DNA of 64,000 nucleotides from an uncultured Lachnospiraceae bacterium (lineage in GTDB: Bacteria > Bacillota > Clostridia > Lachnospirales > Lachnospiraceae). The stretch lies in the NCBI GenBank assembly GCA_945919795.1, contig CAMEJJ010000008.1, positions 1 through 64,000 of the forward strand, written 5' to 3'. The translations under genes and the position numbers were made by a program. The notes beneath the pieces were generated by a model that had not been told where the DNA came from, ran no database searches, and saw nothing but the letters and a program-made list of their open reading frames with translations. Every line of letters begins with the position of its first letter. The first letter of the stretch is position 1. Shown here one piece after another: positions 19,998-51,046 of this stretch.

Positions 19998-21065
19998 ATG
20001 TCAATCAAAAGTTTGATTATCAATCCCGGTTCCACATCCACAAAAATTGGTGTGTTCGAGGATGAAACATTATTATTTGAAGAAACTCTCAGACATTCTA
20101 CAGAAGAAATTGCACAGTATGCAACTATCGTAGATCAGAAAGATTTCCGTAAAGAGATTATCTTAAACTTACTTGCCTCTAAAGACTTTGACATCAAATC
20201 TTTAGATCTTGTTGTTGGTCGTGGCGGTATGTTAAAACCCATCCCCGGTGGTACTTATGCAGTTAGCGATGAATTACTGCATGACCTTGAAATCGGAAAA
20301 CAGGGTCAGCATGCTTCTAACTTAGGTGGTATTTTAGCAAGAGAAATCGGTGATTCCATTGGAAAACCTTCTTTCATCGTTGACCCTGTTGTTGTTGATG
20401 AGTTAGAGCCCACTTCCAGATATTCCGGTGTTCCGGAATTACCCCGTACCAGCGTTTTCCATGCTTTAAATCAGAAAGCAGTTGCAAAGCGTTATGCAAA
20501 AGAAGTCGGCAAATCTTATGATGAGTTAAATTTAATTGTCGTTCATATGGGCGGTGGCGTATCTGTCGGACCTCACAAACACGGTAAAGTAGTAGATATC
20601 TTTAATGCTCTCGACGGAGACGGTGCATTTTCACCCGAGCGTTCCGGTGCTGTTCCGGTTGGTCAGTTAGTAAAAATGTGCTTTTCCGGTCAGTACACCG
20701 AGAAAGAAGTTTACAAAAAACTGGTTGGAAACGGTGGTTTCAATGCATACCTTGGCACCAACGATATGCGTGATGTAGAAAAAATGGTAGATGAAGGCGA
20801 TGCCAAAGCAAAAGAAGTTCGCGATGCATTTATTCAGCAGATGTCAAAAAATATCGGTGCTATGGCAACCGTATTAAACGGCAAGGTTGATCAGATTATT
20901 GTAACCGGCGGTATTGCTTACGACAAAGCCGTTGTAGCAGGCTTAAAAGAAAGATGTGAATGGATTGCACCTTTTACTGTATATCCCGGCGAAGATGAAT
21001 TGTTAGCTTTGGCACAGGGCGGCTTAAGAGTTGTTACCGGTGCTGAAAAAGCTATGGAATATTAA
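19998..21065 (+). CDS. buk: butyrate kinase
   Basis: [35 protein letters not shown] acid kinase. Confidence 0.96.
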
Positions 21066-28037: not shown

Positions 28038-28261
28038 GGTGCAAGTAAATGTTATCGTCAGTTGCAGAGTTCAAAAAGGTTATCTTCTAACTGAATACGG
28101 GAAAGAGATTGAAGTTGATTCGGGTCGTCGTCAAATCGACATCCATGTCGAATGACGACTAAAATTGCCATCCGGGCAATTTCCCCCTTGGTTATTGAGT
28201 ATTCAGTAAGAAGATAAGACCTTTTTATACAATGCAACTGAAGACAACATTTACTTGCACC
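28038..28261 (-). repeat. palindromic mobile-element-like repeat, copy 1 (inverted relative to copy 2)
   Basis: Terminal inverted repeats ggtgcaagtaaatgt/acatttacttgcacc; body is the reverse complement of 36047-36265. Confidence 0.92.
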
Positions 28262-28369: not shown

Positions 28370-29263
28370 TTAAAACGAATTGCATCCTATTAACCGCATA
28401 AACTCAGTAACCTCTTTAGTCTCCAAAGCAAGCTCATACCATGATTGTAATTGAGCAGCGTCTCCTGTCTCTTCCAATTTTTCCTGCAATCCTGCCGGAA
28501 TATCTCCCTGCTTTTTGAAATAGGTCAGTATACAACTTATCAAAGTTTTCTCAGATGCTTCATTACGCTCACAGTCAATAATATCTCCCAGTGTCATATA
28601 CTCATTCCTCACTTCCGGCAAGTTTCTTACCTGCTCCACGATCTCATTTAGTTCCTCTGTTGCCTTATCCGTTGCATTTTCTTTTCTGCTGTTCTGAAAG
28701 TAATTCAGCATTGTCCGGATACTTTCATTGCCACCTTTGCTCCCGCCGGTATAGAAATAAATAAACTCTAATCCATCATCATAGCAAAGGTCGGAAACTT
28801 CCATACATTGATTTTTAATACGATACATCATATACCCATAACCAAAAGGATCATAATTTGTAATCGTTATCACGTACAGATTGGGCAATTTCAAAAAATC
28901 ATCTTCTCCACTCTTTAGATGCCTTGCATCTATCTTCGCCTGATAAAAGCGGTTATGTCTGGGCAAATGCACTCTTTTACGAAGATTGGGCTCCAAATCG
29001 TAAATATTTACAGGTTCATTTTCTTCATCTTCTGCCTCAAATTCCTGGATTTCTACATCCATACGGATACCTCTGTGTTCCGGCGTAAATGGCGGAATCA
29101 TTCTTTGAGACAGCACCTTAATCTTTCCGATTTTCCTCTGCAAAAGAACGGACAGTGACATTCTGCAAAACTCTTCTCCAAGCTTTGGTGTTGTCACAAT
29201 GGCGTTCATAAGGAAATCATCCAGTACATTTAATTCCGCTAATGTTTTGTTTGTATAACTCAT
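28370..29263 (-). CDS. Rpn family / PD-(D/E)XK nuclease family transposase-like protein
   Basis: LDDFLMNAIVTTPKLGEEFCRMSLSVLL, RGIRMDVEIQEFE, RKRVHLPRHNRFYQAKIDARHLKSGEDDFLKLPNLYVITITNYDPFG; start at MSYTNK after aaaggagt RBS. Confidence 0.8.
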   Translation of the reverse strand: MSYTNKTLAELNVLDDFLMNAIVTTPKLGEEFCRMSLSVLLQRKIGKIKVLSQRMIPPFTPEHRGIRMDVEIQEFEAEDEENEPVNIYDLEPNLRKRVHLPRHNRFYQAKIDARHLKSGEDDFLKLPNLYVITITNYDPFGYGYMMYRIKNQCMEVSDLCYDDGLEFIYFYTGGSKGGNESIRTMLNYFQNSRKENATDKATEELNEIVEQVRNLPEVRNEYMTLGDIIDCERNEASEKTLISCILTYFKKQGDIPAGLQEKLEETGDAAQLQSWYELALETKEVTEFMRLIGCNSF

Positions 29264-29508
29264 TAGACTCCTTTCCTTGGCGAAATCCATGGTTATACAT
29301 CTTTCTTTTGGTTTTCGCCAACTTTTCATTTTTTCGTGTGAAAATATTGGCGAGATGCCAAAGATGAATGCCAGTCGCAGAAAGACCGGCGAAACGATTT
29401 TCACGGGTTGTAATATTTGATTTACTACAATTGTATAGTAAATTACATTTATCAATTTGTCAATAATATTTTTTTGTTTTATCATTTGCAATATAGATCT
29501 AAATATTT

Positions 29509-29750
29509 CTATCTGCTTCACTGATTTCAAAAATTACCATTGAAATTATCCCCCATGATGTATCAGCATGTTTTATCGAATAGAAGAGTGCTATCTGGGC
29601 ATCCTCCAAAGTATTGCAATCTTCATCCATGAATAAAGTAATCCCCATTTCTGTAGCATATACAGGACCAAGCTCAATCTCTGTTGAACCACATCATTGC
29701 CTGATAATATATCCACTGCCTTTCACAATGTCTTTATAAACGAAATCATA
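29509..29750 (-). pseudogene. degraded ORF fragment (unknown family)
   Basis: Minus strand reads STEIELGPVYATEMGITLFMDEDCNTLEDAQIALFYSIKHADTSWGIISMVIFEISEADRNI without start; upstream reads MISFIKTL*KAVDILSGNDVVQQ in another frame. Confidence 0.45.
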
Positions 29751-29917
29751 TTATGTTCCTTTCGTAGCTGTAATCCTTCCAGACCATTTCCGCCTTCTTG
29801 TGTTTTTCTGCATCGCTTGCAAGAATGCTTCACTCATTGGAAACCAAAAGTGACCTTCGTTCTAAAGCAAAAACACCAGCTAACTTAATGACTGATGCCT
29901 ACACAGTACTTATTATT

Positions 29918-30634
29918 CTATAAACTTAACTCTTGTTTTCTCTTCTCCAACCTTGTATCTACTATTTCTTTAAGATATGTAATTACCTTTCTACAGGTTT
30001 CTTTATTAATGTCAATTTCTCTCTTAAGACAAACCTTTGCATGCACAGAATTCCTACTTTTTCGGATAAAATGTGCTTTTTCACTTGACTCCATCCAATC
30101 AGGTCTTTCAAGTTCCTTAATTTGATCAATATATACATTCAATTGATCCTTCTTTTCCCATCTATATGTTCCATCCGCTTTTTGTACTCTTATTTTGTAG
30201 GGTTCTTCAAAATAATTCTTTCCATCAATTTCCGAAAGCCAATCAAGAAGAAATGCCTCCAAGGCAGAACCAGCAAGAATTAATGTTGCCTTATATGCAC
30301 CAGAAGAATAGCAAGTATCTAACTCATCAACATCTTCTTTCATCGAATCACACAAATGCTGATAATCTGAAACTAAAAAATCAAATATACTCTTATAAAG
30401 ATTCTTTACCTCTTCTGTTTGATCTTTCATGCGTTGAAAACGCTTATAATATGCCAACAAACGTCTTCTCATTGCATACACATTATTCGTTCTAACTTCA
30501 ACATCAATGGATACTCCATTCAGTTCTAAAGAATAATCTGTCACACCAACACCTTTTGTTTTCTGTGTTTTAGTAGTTTGCTCATCATAATCTGAAACAG
30601 CCTTTTTCAAGGCATCCCAATCGATACCATTCAT
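29918..30634 (-). CDS. HEPN/DUF4145-like domain protein
   Basis: YSSGAYKATLILAGSALEAFLLDWL helix and RKSRNSVHA (R-x(4-6)-H-like) motif. Confidence 0.55.
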   Translation of the reverse strand: MNGIDWDALKKAVSDYDEQTTKTQKTKGVGVTDYSLELNGVSIDVEVRTNNVYAMRRRLLAYYKRFQRMKDQTEEVKNLYKSIFDFLVSDYQHLCDSMKEDVDELDTCYSSGAYKATLILAGSALEAFLLDWLSEIDGKNYFEEPYKIRVQKADGTYRWEKKDQLNVYIDQIKELERPDWMESSEKAHFIRKSRNSVHAKVCLKREIDINKETCRKVITYLKEIVDTRLEKRKQELSL

Positions 30635-31054
30635 AATCTCACTTCCATTTCAATAATTTGACACACCCATAGGCATTATATTAACATTTCATATTGCAGT
30701 CATTATATTTTTACAATTCCTTCAACAAGAAAAACTTCATTTTTTAGACAATTTTTCAATATCTATAATCAAAAAAGAGGCCTGTTAGACACATCATCTA
30801 ATTGCCTCCTTACTTTTCCTCATGTACTATTTTTTGACCTTCTCCCTTTATTTCCAAAGTATGCAAAGCTGAATCTCCTGTCTCTTCCAATACATTCAAT
30901 CATCAACACATACAAATCTTATCTCACAAAATCTTTTGAAAAGGAAGCGAAAAATTTACCATCTTTCAGCTTCCTTATTCAATGAATCATATAGTAATTA
31001 TACATATTATAAATAAATAAGAATATGAATATCATTATTATATCTGTATGTAAT

Positions 31055-34000
31055 CTAAATATCATTGAGGATTTCTCTAATATAAGAAATACTAGTCTCG
31101 ATATCATTATATGTTACCGGATTTGAACCTCGATGCGCTCCTTTATTTCCCACCATTCGCACATGGTGCAACATTCTTATTATATTTTCACCATAAATAT
31201 TCTGTCCTTCCAAAAATTGAATTTTATCAAAAGAATTATCACTTTCTATTGATAATCGGCATTGTCTAAATATCATATTCAATATATCTTCCAAACAATA
31301 CCTTATCTGCATTGCGGCAGACTCATAATCTCCCTGATTGGCATATGTCTTAGCACGATTAATAAAATCATCAAATCCCAGTTTTTTAGTCTGCAATACT
31401 TTCTGTATATTTCCATCGGATAACATATTCTGTGAGTATGTCTTTCCTTGTGCTGCTGCTTTCTGAAACCAAAATGCTGCCTCATAATAATCTCTTGCAA
31501 CTCCAATTCCATAATAATAACAATCTCCTATTGCAGACTGTGCATCTGCATATCCATTCTCTGCAGATTTTAAAAACCATTCTGCTGCTTTTGGATAATT
31601 CTGATATACTCCTATGCCTTTATAATAGTAAAATCCTAAATTATATTGCGCAACACGGTGTCCTTTATTTGCAGCTTTTTCATACCACTCTATTGCAGTT
31701 TGCATATTAATAAGCTTCCTCGAGAAAAAGTATTTTTTTCTTTTACTATCCCGCTCACGATCTTTTGCAAATTGACTATCAAACAGTGTGCCTAATTTAA
31801 ACTGTGCATTTTCGTTTCCTTGATTTGCAGCTTCCAAATACAATTCATATGCTTTCTCATAATCTTTGCAGACACCTTGTCCATTTTCATAACACTCGCC
31901 CAAACAATACTTTGCCCATTTATGCCCACCGTCAACCGCCTTTTCAAACCATTGAACTGCAATATCATAATTTTGAAAAATGCCGGTTCCGTCTCGATAA
32001 CATCTTGCTATATTATATTGACCATACACATCTCCCTGTTCCGCTGCTTTTTCAAAGAATTCAGCTGCTTTCCCATAATCTTGCTTCACACCTTGTCCAT
32101 TCTCATAACACCACCCAAGATTGTTCTGTGCAGTTGCATTTCCTTGCTCTGCGGACTTTTGATACCAGAATACTGCTTTTTCATAATCTTGCGGCACACC
32201 TTGTCCTTTCTCATAACGCACCCCAAGATTGTTCTGCGCCCATTTATTTCCTTGCTCTGCTGACTTTTGATACCAGAATACTGCTTTTTCATAATCTTGC
32301 GGTACACCTTGTCCATTCTCATAACACCACCCAAGATTCTTCTGTGCAGTTGCATTTCCTTGCTCTGCTGACTTTTGATACCAAAATGCGGCTTTTTCAT
32401 AATCTTGCGGCACACCTTGTCCTTTCTCATAACGCACCCCAAGATTGCTCTGGGCATCTGCATGTCCCTGCTCTGCGGACTTTTGATACCAAAATGCAGC
32501 TTTTTCATAATCTTGCGGCACACCTTGTCCATTAGCATAACGCACCCCAAGATTGTTCTGCGCCCATTTATTTCCTTGCTCTGCGGACTTTTGATACCAA
32601 AATGCGGCTTTTTCATAATCTTGTGGCACACCTTGTCCTTTATCATAACACACCCCAAGATTGTTCTGTGCATCTGCATGTCCCTGCTCTGCGGACTTTT
32701 GATACCAAAATGCGGCTTTTTCATAATCTTGTGGCACGCCTTGTCCTTTATCATAACACACCCCAAGATTATACTGTGCAATTGCATTTCCTTGCTCTGC
32801 GGACTTTTGAAAGCATTCTACTGCTTTTTCATAATTTTGTTTCACATATTTGCCATCATAATATAATTTTCCCAAGCGATACATTGCTTCAGGATTTTCT
32901 TCCATATATTCATATAAATGCACGATTTTTTCTTTAATTAAATCGTTTGAGATGGGATGAATATTTTCATATATATCTTCCGGAATAAATTTAGCCTTCA
33001 GTAATTCTTCATATAAATTTACTGATTTGAACAGGTCCCTTACATCTTCTACATTTTCATAAATATAAGCTAAATTGCTCTTTGCATATTTATTTCCTTT
33101 TCTTGAAGCTTTTTCATAATATTCCAAAGCAATTTTTAAATCAGCAGTAATACCATCACCTTTTTCGTAAATTGCACCAATTAAACAGGCATAATCTCCG
33201 CCATTTTTTTCAGCTTTCATCAAGTATTCCAATGCTTTTTTAGAATCTTTTTCTACAATTTTTCCATATAAATATGTTTTTCCAAGACAACCACAACCAT
33301 ATGCATCTCCCTGTTCTGCAGATTTTTGATACCAATCCATTGCTTTTTCACAATCCTGTATTACACCATTTCCAGTCTCATAACACAACCCAAGATTGCA
33401 CTGCGCTGTTGCATATCCCTGCTGTGCAGACTTTTGATACCAAAAAACGGCTTTTTCATAATCTTGCCGCACACCTTGTCCATTCTTATAACACGACCCT
33501 AGATTGTTCTGTGCTCTTGCATTTCCTTGCTCTGCGGATTTTTGATACCAGAATACGGCTTTTTCATAATCTTGCCGCACACCTCGTCCATTCTTATAAC
33601 AAACTCCAAGACAGCACTGTGCTTCCGCATATCCCTGCTCTGCGGACTTTTGATACCAAAATGCGGCTTTTTCATAATCTTGCGGCACACCTTGTCCGCT
33701 CTCATAACACCACCCAAGATTCTTCTGTGCACCTGCATATCCTTGCTCTGCGGACTTTTGATACCAAAATGCGGCTTTTTCATAATCTTGCGGCACACCT
33801 TGTCCATTCTTATAACGATTCCCAAGATTGTTCTGTGCCCATTTATGACCTTGCTCTGCTGACTTTTGATACCAGAATGCGCCCTTTTCATAATCTTGCA
33901 ACACACCTTGTCCATTCATATAACACACTCCAAGATTGTACTGCGCACTTGCATGTCCTTGCTCTGCGGACTTCTGATGCCAAAATGCAGCTTTTTCATA

Positions 34001-34420
34001 ATCTTGCGGCACACCTTGTCCTTTAGCATAGCACACCCCAAGATTGTTCTGCGCCCATTTGTTTCCTTGCTCTGCGGACTTTTGATACCAAAATGCGGCT
34101 TTTTCATAATCTTGCGGCACACCTTGTCCATTCTCATAACACACCCCAAGATTATTCTGCGCATTTGCATGTCCTTGCTCTGCTGATTTTTGATACCATT
34201 CTACAGCTTTATCAAAACTTTTATATACACCCTTCCCATATTCATAAGACACTCCCAGCTCATACATAGCTTCTGGATTTCCTTCATGCGCCAGTTGATA
34301 AAATATCTTTGTAGCTTCTTCAACGTTGCCACTTTCTTTTAACGACAACGCATAATCCATCTTTGGTATCTCTTCTGTTATCTCTTTTTTCTTAAATAAA
34401 TCCAGTAGCATATAACCCAC
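31055..34420 (-). CDS. giant Sel1-like (TPR-type) repeat protein with C-terminal DUF4145/HEPN-like domain
   Basis: ~26 Sel1 repeats of form WYQKSAEQGxxxAQxNLGxCYxxGQGVPQDYEKAAF; C-terminus IRYCLEDILNMIFRQCR...LHHVRMVGNKGAHRGSNPVT. Confidence 0.9.
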   Translation of the reverse strand: MGYMLLDLFKKKEITEEIPKMDYALSLKESGNVEEATKIFYQLAHEGNPEAMYELGVSYEYGKGVYKSFDKAVEWYQKSAEQGHANAQNNLGVCYENGQGVPQDYEKAAFWYQKSAEQGNKWAQNNLGVCYAKGQGVPQDYEKAAFWHQKSAEQGHASAQYNLGVCYMNGQGVLQDYEKGAFWYQKSAEQGHKWAQNNLGNRYKNGQGVPQDYEKAAFWYQKSAEQGYAGAQKNLGWCYESGQGVPQDYEKAAFWYQKSAEQGYAEAQCCLGVCYKNGRGVRQDYEKAVFWYQKSAEQGNARAQNNLGSCYKNGQGVRQDYEKAVFWYQKSAQQGYATAQCNLGLCYETGNGVIQDCEKAMDWYQKSAEQGDAYGCGCLGKTYLYGKIVEKDSKKALEYLMKAEKNGGDYACLIGAIYEKGDGITADLKIALEYYEKASRKGNKYAKSNLAYIYENVEDVRDLFKSVNLYEELLKAKFIPEDIYENIHPISNDLIKEKIVHLYEYMEENPEAMYRLGKLYYDGKYVKQNYEKAVECFQKSAEQGNAIAQYNLGVCYDKGQGVPQDYEKAAFWYQKSAEQGHADAQNNLGVCYDKGQGVPQDYEKAAFWYQKSAEQGNKWAQNNLGVRYANGQGVPQDYEKAAFWYQKSAEQGHADAQSNLGVRYEKGQGVPQDYEKAAFWYQKSAEQGNATAQKNLGWCYENGQGVPQDYEKAVFWYQKSAEQGNKWAQNNLGVRYEKGQGVPQDYEKAVFWYQKSAEQGNATAQNNLGWCYENGQGVKQDYGKAAEFFEKAAEQGDVYGQYNIARCYRDGTGIFQNYDIAVQWFEKAVDGGHKWAKYCLGECYENGQGVCKDYEKAYELYLEAANQGNENAQFKLGTLFDSQFAKDRERDSKRKKYFFSRKLINMQTAIEWYEKAANKGHRVAQYNLGFYYYKGIGVYQNYPKAAEWFLKSAENGYADAQSAIGDCYYYGIGVARDYYEAAFWFQKAAAQGKTYSQNMLSDGNIQKVLQTKKLGFDDFINRAKTYANQGDYESAAMQIRYCLEDILNMIFRQCRLSIESDNSFDKIQFLEGQNIYGENIIRMLHHVRMVGNKGAHRGSNPVTYNDIETSISYIREILNDI
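32080..34200. repeat. 108 bp (36-codon) tandem repeats inside the Sel1-repeat gene, two blocks
   Basis: Near-identical tgctctgcggacttttgataccaaaatgcggctttttcataatcttgcggcacaccttgtcc units. Confidence 0.95.
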
Positions 34421-34622
34421 GCCTCTCCATTCCGTCTATATATTTTCAATATTTTAAAAAGCCAAATTTATACTTACTTTCAAGCTTAACTCTTCATCTA
34501 TACCTATATTTTATAATAGTTTTACAAATTTCTCCAGTTATTATAGTGCTTTTGAATCTATAAAGTCTTTTATAAAACTTGAAATCATATTTCTAATTCA
34601 TTCCTAAATGATAACGATAAGA

Positions 34623-35183
34623 TTATTTATCGAACCAATCGTGACAGATTTTTTTCAAAAGAAATTTTGTCAAAAGTAACATAATAGAAATACCTATATA
34701 ATAAAATCTTTTAGAAATCGGTAACACAAAAGGGGAACCAAAAACACTAACCAAAAGAAGGATCCAAGATATAATTTGTGACATGCCCATAACCAAACAC
34801 ATTCCGGAATATTTAAAATTAATGATAATATCTTCTAAAGATAGTTCTTTTCTATGTAACAAAATATTTTTTTCCATATGGATCCAAGCATCTCTACATA
34901 ATAGTTTCTCACCGGATAATTTGCTAACCGAAAGCAATCGATATAAGCGTCTTATACCTTTGTCAGAAACATAGGAAATTGCTTCATATATATATCCATG
35001 CAAAATGATTGCACATTGATAAAAAGTACCTTTCTTCCCTCTATGCAACATTTCCTGTTGTTTATAGATAGCACCACAATGTTCTAACACACCAACAACA
35101 TATAATTCTTGAAAATTCTCTTGATACTCCATATATCGCCTTCCCAATTTTTCATTCTTTTGCTCATGTAAAGTATGTATCAT
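34623..35183 (-). CDS. hypothetical membrane protein
   Basis: Two C-terminal TM segments; start 1 nt after upstream gene stop. Confidence 0.6.
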   Translation of the reverse strand: MIHTLHEQKNEKLGRRYMEYQENFQELYVVGVLEHCGAIYKQQEMLHRGKKGTFYQCAIILHGYIYEAISYVSDKGIRRLYRLLSVSKLSGEKLLCRDAWIHMEKNILLHRKELSLEDIIINFKYSGMCLVMGMSQIISWILLLVSVFGSPFVLPISKRFYYIGISIMLLLTKFLLKKICHDWFDK

Positions 35184-35184
35184 T

Positions 35185-35916
35185 TTACTGATTATTTTCT
35201 ACCGGCGGATATTTTTCCGTTATATTATCAATTACATCTTGTACAACAGCATCCCATTGGCTTGGGTCATTTATATCCAGCCACATGTCATGCCATTCCT
35301 GTGAATATTCTATAGGCGGAACTGTATCCGGTATATCTTTGGGATTGAATGCTTTAACAGGTTGAGAAGAATCTCCTGTTGTAGAGCCTGTTGTAGCGTC
35401 TGTTGTAGTGCTTGTTGTAGCGTCTGTTGTTGCACTCGGCTGAACCGGTTGTTCAGGCGCATTCTGAACCTCATTATTATTTGCCATATCCGGCGCATCA
35501 CTGCTGGGACCAGATGTAATTTCAACCGTCGTATCATCCGCAGTATCCGTTGTCTCTTCGCTCACAGATTTTATATTCTTTTTTTCTTCAACCGGGCGAA
35601 CTACATTCTTGTCTTTTGTGGTATTTGCTTTCGCTTTCTGAAGAGGATCCTCTTTGGAGACTTCTTTTTGCTCTTCTTTAGGTTCTTCTTTTTGCTTTTC
35701 TTCACTTTCTTCCACAACTTCTTCAATAGTTGTAGCACAAGTCGAATCCATATTTTCATCAGTATCAACTGCATTTTGAGTCTGTACCGGAACCGGTTCT
35801 TTTTCTTTGCATTTAAAATAAGCAATTGTACTACCTGTACCAATTACCATGCATACAAAACCTACTAAACAAAACTGTAATAATCTATTATTTTTCATAA
35901 TAATCATCCTTTCCAA
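35185..35916 (-). CDS. single-TM anchored, low-complexity Glu/Lys and Thr-rich protein
   Basis: N-terminal LLQFCLVGFVCMVIGTGSTIAYF TM; (ATTDATTSTTTDATTGSTT) linker. Confidence 0.65.
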   Translation of the reverse strand: MERMIIMKNNRLLQFCLVGFVCMVIGTGSTIAYFKCKEKEPVPVQTQNAVDTDENMDSTCATTIEEVVEESEEKQKEEPKEEQKEVSKEDPLQKAKANTTKDKNVVRPVEEKKNIKSVSEETTDTADDTTVEITSGPSSDAPDMANNNEVQNAPEQPVQPSATTDATTSTTTDATTGSTTGDSSQPVKAFNPKDIPDTVPPIEYSQEWHDMWLDINDPSQWDAVVQDVIDNITEKYPPVENNQ

Positions 35917-36046
35917 TATCTTATTTCTTTGTACTTCATTATTTGTATCCGCAGCGAATATTATAAAATAGCATAACTCTTACGACTTGTAAATACCCAA
36001 ATTAAATTTTTTTAATTTTTTGTTTTATCATTTGCAAACAAATAAA

Positions 36047-36265
36047 GTGCAAGTAAATGTCGTCGGCAGTTGCATTGTACAAAAAGGTCTCATCTTCTTA
36101 CTGAATACTCAATACCTAAGGGGGAAATTGCCCGGATGGCAATTTTAGTCGTCATTCGACATGGATGTCGATTTGACGACGCCCCGAACCCAATCCATTT
36201 CCTTTCCCGTATTCAGTTAGAAGATAACCTTTTTGAACTCTGCAACTGACGACATTTACTTGCAC
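36047..36265 (+). repeat. palindromic mobile-element-like repeat, copy 2
   Basis: gtgcaagtaaatgtcgtc...gacgacatttacttgcac termini; internal hairpins gtcgtcattcgacatggatgtcgatttgacgac and attgcccggatggcaat. Confidence 0.92.
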
Positions 36266-48937: not shown

Positions 48938-51046
48938 TCATTCTATATAATAATCCAGATCCACATTTCCCGATATTCCGCTCACACTTCCGGTATTGGA
49001 GTACTGCCACATCTGATATGTACCGCGATAAGCAGGAGCGTCTTTACTTTGATAGTCAGCAACCCATATTTTAATATTTGACAGGCGGGATGTATCGATG
49101 GTATTTTGGGAATCTGCTTCTACATCATAATAAACCATGGCTTCATATCCGGCAGATTGAATTTCATTACAAAATGCAATCGCCAAATCCGTGCGCTGCG
49201 CGGTATTCAAAAAATTGGATCGCTTCTCTCTCTGATTGCTATATTCTAAATCAAATGCAACCGGGAGAGCTAAATCCGCATTCTGCAGTTTATCAATCAC
49301 AAAACGTGCCTCTTCTTTCGCTTCATTCACATCTACGGCTTCCGAATGGAAATACACCCCCACTCTTAAACCTGCATTCTTTGCATTCTGCAGATTTTGC
49401 AAAAAGTAGTCATCCGTATTCAGACTCCCTGCACTTCCATAACCCCGAAAGCCCAATCGGATCATGGCTCCCCGGACACCCGATGCAGCTACTTTTTTCC
49501 AATCGATATTTCCCTGATAAGCCGATACATCAATCATTGGTATCGTTGAAATCTGTCCGGTTTTAGTATCTGCTTCTTCATCTGTTTTAGCAGCTATTTT
49601 ATTTGATGCATCTGTTTTATTTGATATATCTGTTTTATTCGATATATCCATTTTAACAGTTGTACTCTCTAATTCTTTGGAAACGTCCTGCCATTTCAGT
49701 TTGGTAGCAACAATCCGTATTACTGCGTCGTCGATACGCTCTTTTAGAATGGTTCCATCCTCTGCTGCCGCAATAACCCCTGCGGCTGCCTCATAAAAAT
49801 CAGCCGGCATCAACAATAAATCGGCTCCCGCCAAAACAGCGGATACAGCTGCCTCAGAAGAAGAATAGTTTTGTACAATCGCCCCCATGTTAAGGGCATC
49901 GGTAATAATCAGTCCGTCATAACCCAAATCATTTCGAAGAATTTGGGATATCATTTTTTCGGATAACGAAGCCGGTGTCTCATCCCCAGTTACATTAGGA
50001 AGTGAAATATGTCCGACCATAACCGCATCGATGCCAAAATCCTGTGCCTTTTGAAAAGGTATCCATTCCGCCTGCATGAATTGCTCATACGTCTTATCCG
50101 AATAAGCAAACCCGTCATGGGTATCCTGTTTCACAGCACCGTGGCCGGGAAAATGTTTGAACGTACTAAGAATACCTTGCTCATGTAATCCATCTGAAAC
50201 TGCGCCTGCAAAGCTTGCCACCAGCTGCGGATTATCTCCAAACGATCTGGCACCAATGGCATCATCGCCTCCATTGGTCAGTACATCCGCATCAGGAGCA
50301 AAATCAAAATTAAATCCCAAATCTTTCAAATAGGATCCAATATAGGCCCCGGCTTCATATGCTTGTTGTGAATCCGTGATATCCTGCATATCTCCAACAT
50401 TTTTTACACCAAAGGAAGAATTACCGGCAATGCGTGTTACCTTTCCACCTTCCTCATCCACACATAAAAACAACGGCACTTCCTGCGTTTTAAGGGCGTA
50501 TTCCTGTGTCTTTGAAAGCATTGTCCGGGTTTGATCCCCATCAACCAGATTTTTTGCAAAATAAACCAGTCCTCCTACCGGATACTGTTCCAATGCTTTT
50601 TCTGTGGTCTGCCCTGCTGTCGTTACGGTATCAACCTCCGTCAACGCCTCCGGTGTAATGATAAATAACTGATACACCTTTTCTTCCAACGTCATCCGGC
50701 TAACCATCTCTTCTGCCTGCAAAATATATGTTTCCATCGCATCTTTGGTCTCTGTATCCTCAGATTCGGTTTTCAAATCAGTCTCAGACAGTGCAGTCTC
50801 TGTATCGATTGCTTTGTTTTCTTCTACAAAATCGTTTTCGTCGGTCGTTTCTTCCGTACTATTTTCTCTGAAAGGCTCTTCCATAGCCATTTCTCCGACC
50901 GCTTCTTCTTTGTCGGCATTCTTATTCCGGCTCACGGCTTTTATCCCCAGCACGCACAAGAAAACAACTGCCAAAACCAGAAGTAAGGCAGCTGATATAT
51001 AGAGAAATCTTTCCAATTGATGTTTCCGTCGTTTATTCATGAACAT
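48938..51046 (-). CDS. bifunctional GH3 beta-N-acetylglucosaminidase / GH25 lysozyme fusion
   Basis: GH3: FKHFPGHGAVKQDTHDG, DGLIITDALNMGAI; GH25: IDVSAYQGNIDWKKVAASGVRGAMIRLGFRGYG, FDLEYS. Confidence 0.92.
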   Translation of the reverse strand: MFMNKRRKHQLERFLYISAALLLVLAVVFLCVLGIKAVSRNKNADKEEAVGEMAMEEPFRENSTEETTDENDFVEENKAIDTETALSETDLKTESEDTETKDAMETYILQAEEMVSRMTLEEKVYQLFIITPEALTEVDTVTTAGQTTEKALEQYPVGGLVYFAKNLVDGDQTRTMLSKTQEYALKTQEVPLFLCVDEEGGKVTRIAGNSSFGVKNVGDMQDITDSQQAYEAGAYIGSYLKDLGFNFDFAPDADVLTNGGDDAIGARSFGDNPQLVASFAGAVSDGLHEQGILSTFKHFPGHGAVKQDTHDGFAYSDKTYEQFMQAEWIPFQKAQDFGIDAVMVGHISLPNVTGDETPASLSEKMISQILRNDLGYDGLIITDALNMGAIVQNYSSSEAAVSAVLAGADLLLMPADFYEAAAGVIAAAEDGTILKERIDDAVIRIVATKLKWQDVSKELESTTVKMDISNKTDISNKTDASNKIAAKTDEEADTKTGQISTIPMIDVSAYQGNIDWKKVAASGVRGAMIRLGFRGYGSAGSLNTDDYFLQNLQNAKNAGLRVGVYFHSEAVDVNEAKEEARFVIDKLQNADLALPVAFDLEYSNQREKRSNFLNTAQRTDLAIAFCNEIQSAGYEAMVYYDVEADSQNTIDTSRLSNIKIWVADYQSKDAPAYRGTYQMWQYSNTGSVSGISGNVDLDYYIE

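Follow-up and report, generated by a model that had tools for sequence, protein, structure and literature searches.

The window, a stretch of 64,000 nucleotides from an uncultured Lachnospiraceae bacterium, carries a gene for a protein that joins a long array of Sel1 repeats to a C-terminal DUF4145 domain (the Sel1-HEPN protein). The gene and its surroundings contain the following features.

31055-34420, minus strand: Sel1-repeat/HEPN (DUF4145) protein of 1121 amino acids; GTG start, with an alternative ATG at codon 4
31448-34282, minus strand: Sel1 array, residues 47-991
31058-31417, minus strand: C-terminal domain with a predicted HEPN fold, residues 1002-1121; DUF4145 covers residues 1023-1111
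31133-31171, minus strand: LHHVRMVGNKGAH motif, residues 1084-1096, containing R1088-x3-N1092-x3-H1096; R1040 and E1044 are its partners in helix 2
29492-36015, no strand: variable block of 6.5 kb with the Sel1-HEPN gene and three ORFs, absent from the closest relative (G003)
29470-29491, plus strand: first copy of a 22-bp perfect direct repeat (TTTTTTGTTTTATCATTTGCAA)
36016-36037, plus strand: second copy of this direct repeat
34623-35183, minus strand: ORF of 186 amino acids without family match; two hydrophobic C-terminal stretches
35185-35916, minus strand: ORF of 243 amino acids adjoining the 186-aa ORF; hydrophobic N-terminal stretch, then low complexity
29918-30634, minus strand: ORF of 238 amino acids with an RNSVHA motif (RNLVHA in its one relative)
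28067-28232, minus strand: TwoAYGGAY RNA element (RF01731), left-hand one of two that flank the region in inverted orientation
36075-36241, plus strand: TwoAYGGAY RNA element (RF01731), right member of the pair

The reading frame of the Sel1-HEPN gene is intact over its 1121 codons, and the further ORFs within 31055-34420 are frame shadows of the Sel1 repeat. Searches against Pfam matched Sel1 to 24 stretches of the protein (E 7.5e-269). A register scan counted 24 tandem 36-residue repeats between residues 47 and 991, together with degenerate ones, so the earlier note's figure of about 26 repeats ahead of the C-terminal domain is fair. The array is also visible at the DNA level as a 108-bp tandem repeat. 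DUF4145 (PF13643) matched residues 1023-1111 with E 5.2e-8 and 33.3 bits, where the curated cut-off is 23.1, and the signature peptide LHHVRMVGNKGAH previously noticed in this domain was located at residues 1084-1096. No other Sel1-repeat gene is present in the genome; the second and only other DUF4145 lies N-terminally in a type I restriction HsdR, adjoining an HsdS-like gene.

The Sel1-HEPN gene is accessory. In the closest relative, 25 bp take the place of positions 29488-36040, and the flanking DNA is 94-96% identical on both sides. The perfect 22-bp direct repeat bounds the block on either side, where chance would predict none. The surrounding genes are ordinary: one flank holds an etfA/etfB/acyl-CoA dehydrogenase/crotonase/thiolase cluster, named by reading the sequences, and the other holds DUF218, rhomboid, YbaK-like and MBOAT genes, all but DUF218 named in the same way. 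When the neighbours and ten further window proteins were compared with PADLOC, nothing matched besides the DUF4145 and repeat parts of the Sel1-HEPN protein itself, and no defence gene was located nearby among the window proteins scanned.

Several other elements of the window deserve mention. The inverted TwoAYGGAY pair encloses an Rpn-like gene together with the Sel1-HEPN block here, and the Rpn-like gene only in G003. The genome contains 31 copies of the element, many as minus-plus pairs a few hundred bases apart, and whether such pairs may be mobile or MITE-like in nature is a question that they raise. The Rpn-like gene (28370-29530, minus strand), which adjoins the variable block, resembles the Rpn-family recombination-promoting nuclease/putative transposase at a score below the cut-off (TIGR01784, 36.5 bits); two or more such copies or fragments occur near etfA in another relative (G001). 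Further away, positions 48938-51046 (minus strand) encode a 702-aa protein combining a GH3 N-terminal domain with one of the GH25 lysozyme type, perhaps a cell-wall hydrolase with two enzyme activities. A 355-aa ORF at 19998-21065 (plus strand) matches the acetate kinase model, 392 positions long, over positions 177-339 only.

The earlier note had allowed that the protein might turn out to be a conserved housekeeping secretion factor; its absence from relatives speaks against this. Sel1 repeats often occur in proteins of the envelope and in secreted ones, and this general knowledge is what would suit a Sel1-family scaffold with a conserved role in housekeeping, secretion or the envelope. We consider such a role very unlikely, since G003 lacks the gene at this locus, no such fusion was found in the family (396), class (388) and phylum (398) genomes searched, the genome encodes a single Sel1 protein, and the N-terminus (MGYMLLDLFKKKEITEEI) has neither a signal peptide nor a hydrophobic stretch.

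The four ORFs of the block all lie on the same strand. Among 297 other genomes of the family, the 186-aa protein was not found and the 238-aa protein had one relative (in G093), 44% identical, with which it shares AGSxLEAxLxDWLSEI and RKxRNxVHAK. No library searched recognised the 238-aa protein as HEPN; by inspection only, it is possibly another HEPN-like protein. Four same-strand ORFs that share a 6.5-kb variable block ending in direct repeats, together with the RNSVH motif conserved in the relative of the 238-aa protein, would suit a small toxin-antitoxin or conflict module carried as selfish cargo, in which the Sel1-HEPN protein would be the toxin, flanked by the 186-aa and 243-aa ORFs upstream and the 238-aa ORF downstream. 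This arrangement appears unlikely: none of the neighbours resembles a known antitoxin, the gaps of about 200 bp (towards the upstream ORFs) and 420 bp beside the gene argue against one operon, and next to the sole relative of the 238-aa protein found, no Sel1 gene was seen within the 2.3 kb read. An operon of the Sel1-HEPN gene with its two upstream ORFs, implied when 31055-35916 had been proposed for joint expression, is doubtful and was dropped because of the gap, in which a promoter-like site was found as well.

Within the array, 15 homogenised core repeats (residues 83-370 and 544-795) lie on either side of a degenerate middle zone (residues 371-543), and the register scan found a second degenerate zone at the end. 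Amino-acid identity among the core repeats averages 77.6% (best pair 91.7%) and stays below the high internal conservation of more than 85% identity over at least 100 amino acids. Five positions (4, 7, 11, 14 and 15), all on one face of helix A, account for 45% of the pairwise amino-acid differences between them, and nine positions hold 71%. Compared with 15 Sel1 repeats from unrelated proteins, the core repeats are near frozen at positions 17, 21, 24, 25, 28, 31, 35 and 36, which do vary among the unrelated ones, and at positions 4, 7 and 14 their variability equals that between unrelated proteins. In TPR-like superhelices, this helix-A face lines the concave groove, and the variable face is presumed to do so here.

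For the face, simple counts at positions picked after inspection gave a pN of 0.45 versus a pS of 0.27 (13 repeats) to 0.32 (15 repeats); the resulting ratio of 1.4-1.7 (bootstrap range 1.3-2.2) uses no codon model and ignores recombination between repeats. Near-fixation of silent sites was ruled out, pS being about 0.3. The overall repeat pN/pS of about 0.42 shows purifying selection on the repeat scaffold, and the variation, with modest evidence of selection, hints at a putative binding surface diversified on this conserved scaffold. A neutral repeat ORF, newly acquired and expanded and having no selected function, would fit the rarity of the protein and the slippage-prone tandem DNA repeats. 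We give it hardly any weight, in view of the open frame of 1121 codons, the purifying selection on the scaffold and the conservation of the HEPN core residues.

To model the C-terminal domain, we aligned it with 11 relatives, each 17-28% identical to it. The AlphaFold2 model from this 12-sequence alignment (pLDDT 93.6, pTM 0.86) has helices at domain positions 3-27, 31-52, 62-71, 77-94 and 103-119, forming a bundle of four long helices with a short one inserted after helix 2 and ahead of helix 3, which is the arrangement of the HEPN fold. In a Foldseek search of the PDB, places 1-31 were all taken by HEPN or HEPN-type proteins, among them MntA-HepT, SO_3166-SO_3165, AF0298 (TM 0.76), ST0689, TM0613, YutE and their kin; the top matches, with TM values of about 0.5-0.76, include active HepT toxins. 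The E-values were weak to modest (best 0.009), and almost every one of the first 30 matches had a probability of 1.00. The model being confident and the top PDB matches being HEPN proteins, a HEPN fold of the predicted domain is therefore well supported, and the HEPN relationship first proposed from the letters of the sequence is borne out by the DUF4145 match, the model and the Foldseek matches. A sequence search of the PDB returned designed TPRs only, with E above 1. Because the whole-chain AlphaFold2 model, run without an alignment, had a pLDDT of 42.9, we make no claim on the packing of the array against the HEPN domain.

HEPN domains of this kind occur in RNA-cutting toxins and in proteins of phage defence. 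The HEPN RNases of the literature have Rx4-6H where helix 3 ends, and in it the R is followed by a polar residue; helix 2 often supplies an acidic one. HEPN domains without the motif are thought to bind RNA. In our model, helix 2 bears R1040 and E1044, helix 3 bears R1088 and N1092, and H1096 lies just beyond helix 3; a motif near the end of helix 3 and the acidic E1044 in helix 2 correspond to the layout described for HEPN RNases. All five residues are invariant in the 12 aligned sequences (12/12). On the RNase effector that the earlier note held possible, the domain points both ways: the HEPN fold, the helix-2 Glu and R-x3-N-x3-H are present, but the canonical Rx4-6H is absent from the domain, the spacing being R1088-x7-H1096, and the position of the HepT catalytic Arg, five before the His, is occupied by G1091. 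A profile alignment with HepT-like proteins, though weak, pairs N1092 (at H-4) and H1096 with the N and H of the HepT RNxxxH.

This displacement extends beyond the present protein. R-x3-N-x3-H occurs in 30 of 36 DUF4145 segments of relatives, so DUF4145 as a class, the Sel1-HEPN protein included, has a shifted arginine; canonical RNxxxH is found in addition in three HsdR copies only, and at the catalytic Arg position nearly all of the DUF4145 domains examined carry another residue. In the literature found, RNase activity had been demonstrated for no DUF4145 domain. As R1088, N1092, H1096 and E1044 are typical of the family, RNase activity of the Sel1-HEPN domain is possible.

Relatives were sought in more than 1,000 genomes, drawn with some overlap from the family (396), the class (388) and the phylum (398), and no other protein was found to align over both the last Sel1 repeat and the DUF4145 domain. 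A single-protein scan of the genome contigs detected no close relatives of the C-terminal domain, and an alignment scan detected 11 DUF4145 loci, none with Sel1 (0/11). The nearest domains, 17-37% identical, belong to DUF4145-TM-SH3b proteins, HsdR and DUF4145-helicase proteins. The annotated phage collection contained no match; a plasmid search gave three distant matches, and phrog_1305 and phrog_22005 of PHROGs matched the C-terminal domain. Two Firmicutes proteins of about 700-800 amino acids (L066 and L068) have an internal DUF4145 followed by a region that looks degenerate Sel1-like by eye and has no Sel1 match.

The reverse order, with an N-terminal DUF4145-like domain and C-terminal Sel1, was found in two genomes (G866 and G1085) of one genus from another Firmicutes family; the DUF4145-like match is just above the cut-off in G866 (23.7 bits) and below it in G1085. 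Pairing of Sel1 with DUF4145 therefore probably arose more than once, judging from these sequences. The proteins concerned (L100 157-1881 and L117) have a middle region of unknown kind, and G1085 seemingly has more than one paralogue. Both genomes have lost the motif's N and H, and retention of the module without the motif favours a structural or binding role in that lineage.

These observations bear on a second explanation of the Sel1-HEPN protein, a non-catalytic adaptor in which the HEPN domain would serve for dimerisation or for binding RNA or protein, a role proposed for MtlR, and the Sel1 array would scaffold a host complex or a regulatory pathway, with neither RNase activity nor suicide. 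Loss of the motif N and H in the Sel1-fused domains of G866 and G1085 is consistent with such an adaptor, as are the rarity of Arg at the catalytic position across DUF4145, the thought that motif-less HEPN domains bind RNA, and the presence of related domains in TM-SH3b proteins, which look like envelope or signalling proteins. On the other hand, the closer relatives keep R, N and H without exception, seemingly beyond mere structural need, and the gene is accessory rather than conserved. We regard the adaptor as nearly as likely as an active sensor-effector.

Anantharaman et al. 2013 (PMC3710099) assigned DUF4145 to the HEPN superfamily, and Table 1 of that survey lists DUF4145 fusions in Firmicutes that include Sel1, with Zn ribbon, TM and SH3. 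These Sel1 fusions share our DUF4145 domain, and TM-SH3 relatives were recovered here too; the portion of the survey drawn on here gives architecture only, and a long homogenised array, a variable face and the genomic setting are not described in it. The Sel1-HEPN protein is a new, long example of an architecture listed in 2013, and published work largely foreshadows the finding. We did not find reports of the shifted arginine in such a protein, of groove-concentrated repeat variation or of a repeat-bounded accessory block.

BxaP (PMC10799925), a DUF4145 protein that gives 1000-fold protection against T4 in E. coli with an abortive-type response, likewise combines DUF4145 with a predicted helical-repeat part, as compared by description, but its DUF4145 is N-terminal, its C-terminus is HEAT-like and it occurs in BREX or RM loci. 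The N-terminal part of the PADLOC candidate PDC-M16A (930 aa) matches the Sel1-HEPN C-terminal domain (E 4.6e-10), and the DUF4145-helicase proteins recovered here are about as long as PDC-M16A, with a helicase in place of Sel1. Type I HsdR has the same domain, with R-x3-N-x3-H in most copies, but at the N-terminus and fused to a restriction motor. MntA-HepT toxins (6m6w, 5yep and 7ae9), which are top Foldseek matches, share the fold; unlike the Sel1-HEPN protein, they have a canonical Rx4H in a stand-alone toxin with an MNT antitoxin and no repeats. For the array, Avs5 offers a parallel, a defence receptor in which a C-terminal TPR/Sel1 repeat region is the sensor and is essential for activation. 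Fungal NLRs (PMC4986451) have repeats of high internal conservation, defined by a cut-off of 85% identity; they share with the Sel1-HEPN array homogenised repeats that vary at predicted contact positions, whereas the Sel1-HEPN protein has no STAND ATPase and its core identity of 78% is under their 85%.

Taken together, a sensor-effector or sensor-adaptor of the conflict or stress type is the most likely identity of the protein. Our tentative preference, at a probability of roughly 0.4, is that it acts as a horizontally variable, cytosolic, single-chain sensor in which the repeats control an active HEPN effector. Like other HEPN toxins, the HEPN domain would act as a dimer, and an unengaged array would hold it in check; engagement of the array by a phage or a stress-induced protein would release it to cut or bind RNA, and translation would stop. 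What we infer here is that the array binds a ligand and restrains the domain, that the domain dimerises and cuts or binds RNA, and that the protein has a role in defence.

This sensor-effector reading is supported by the HEPN layout and PDB matches, the five invariant residues, the variable block and the one-face repeat variation, and by analogy with DUF4145 relatives in HsdR and DUF4145-helicase proteins, phage protection by BxaP and the Sel1 sensor of Avs5. Weighing against it are the absence of Rx4-6H, the lost motif in G866 and G1085, the lack of a nearby defence gene among the window proteins scanned and of a match in the phage records, the modest signal of selection on the face (pN/pS about 1.4-1.7) and the weak Foldseek E-values. 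The evidence for an anti-phage role in particular is indirect: an accessory gene, and DUF4145 relatives in HsdR, helicase-type candidates and BxaP, would be consistent with it. A bolder version, rather unlikely, would have the protein be a minimal, ATPase-free NLR-like receptor, with a Sel1 array under concerted evolution, a hypervariable concave stripe that shuffling of repeats would re-sort to follow changing ligands, and a directly coupled HEPN effector whose R-x3-N-x3-H site is non-canonical.

DUF4145 domains are spread through restriction enzymes and defence candidates, and in the literature found their biochemical activity had not been demonstrated. If the sensor-effector reading is true, the Sel1-HEPN protein would provide a direct test of whether DUF4145 domains are RNases despite the missing canonical arginine, and one gene would link a sensor built of repeats to a HEPN toxin, with neither an ATPase nor a second subunit.
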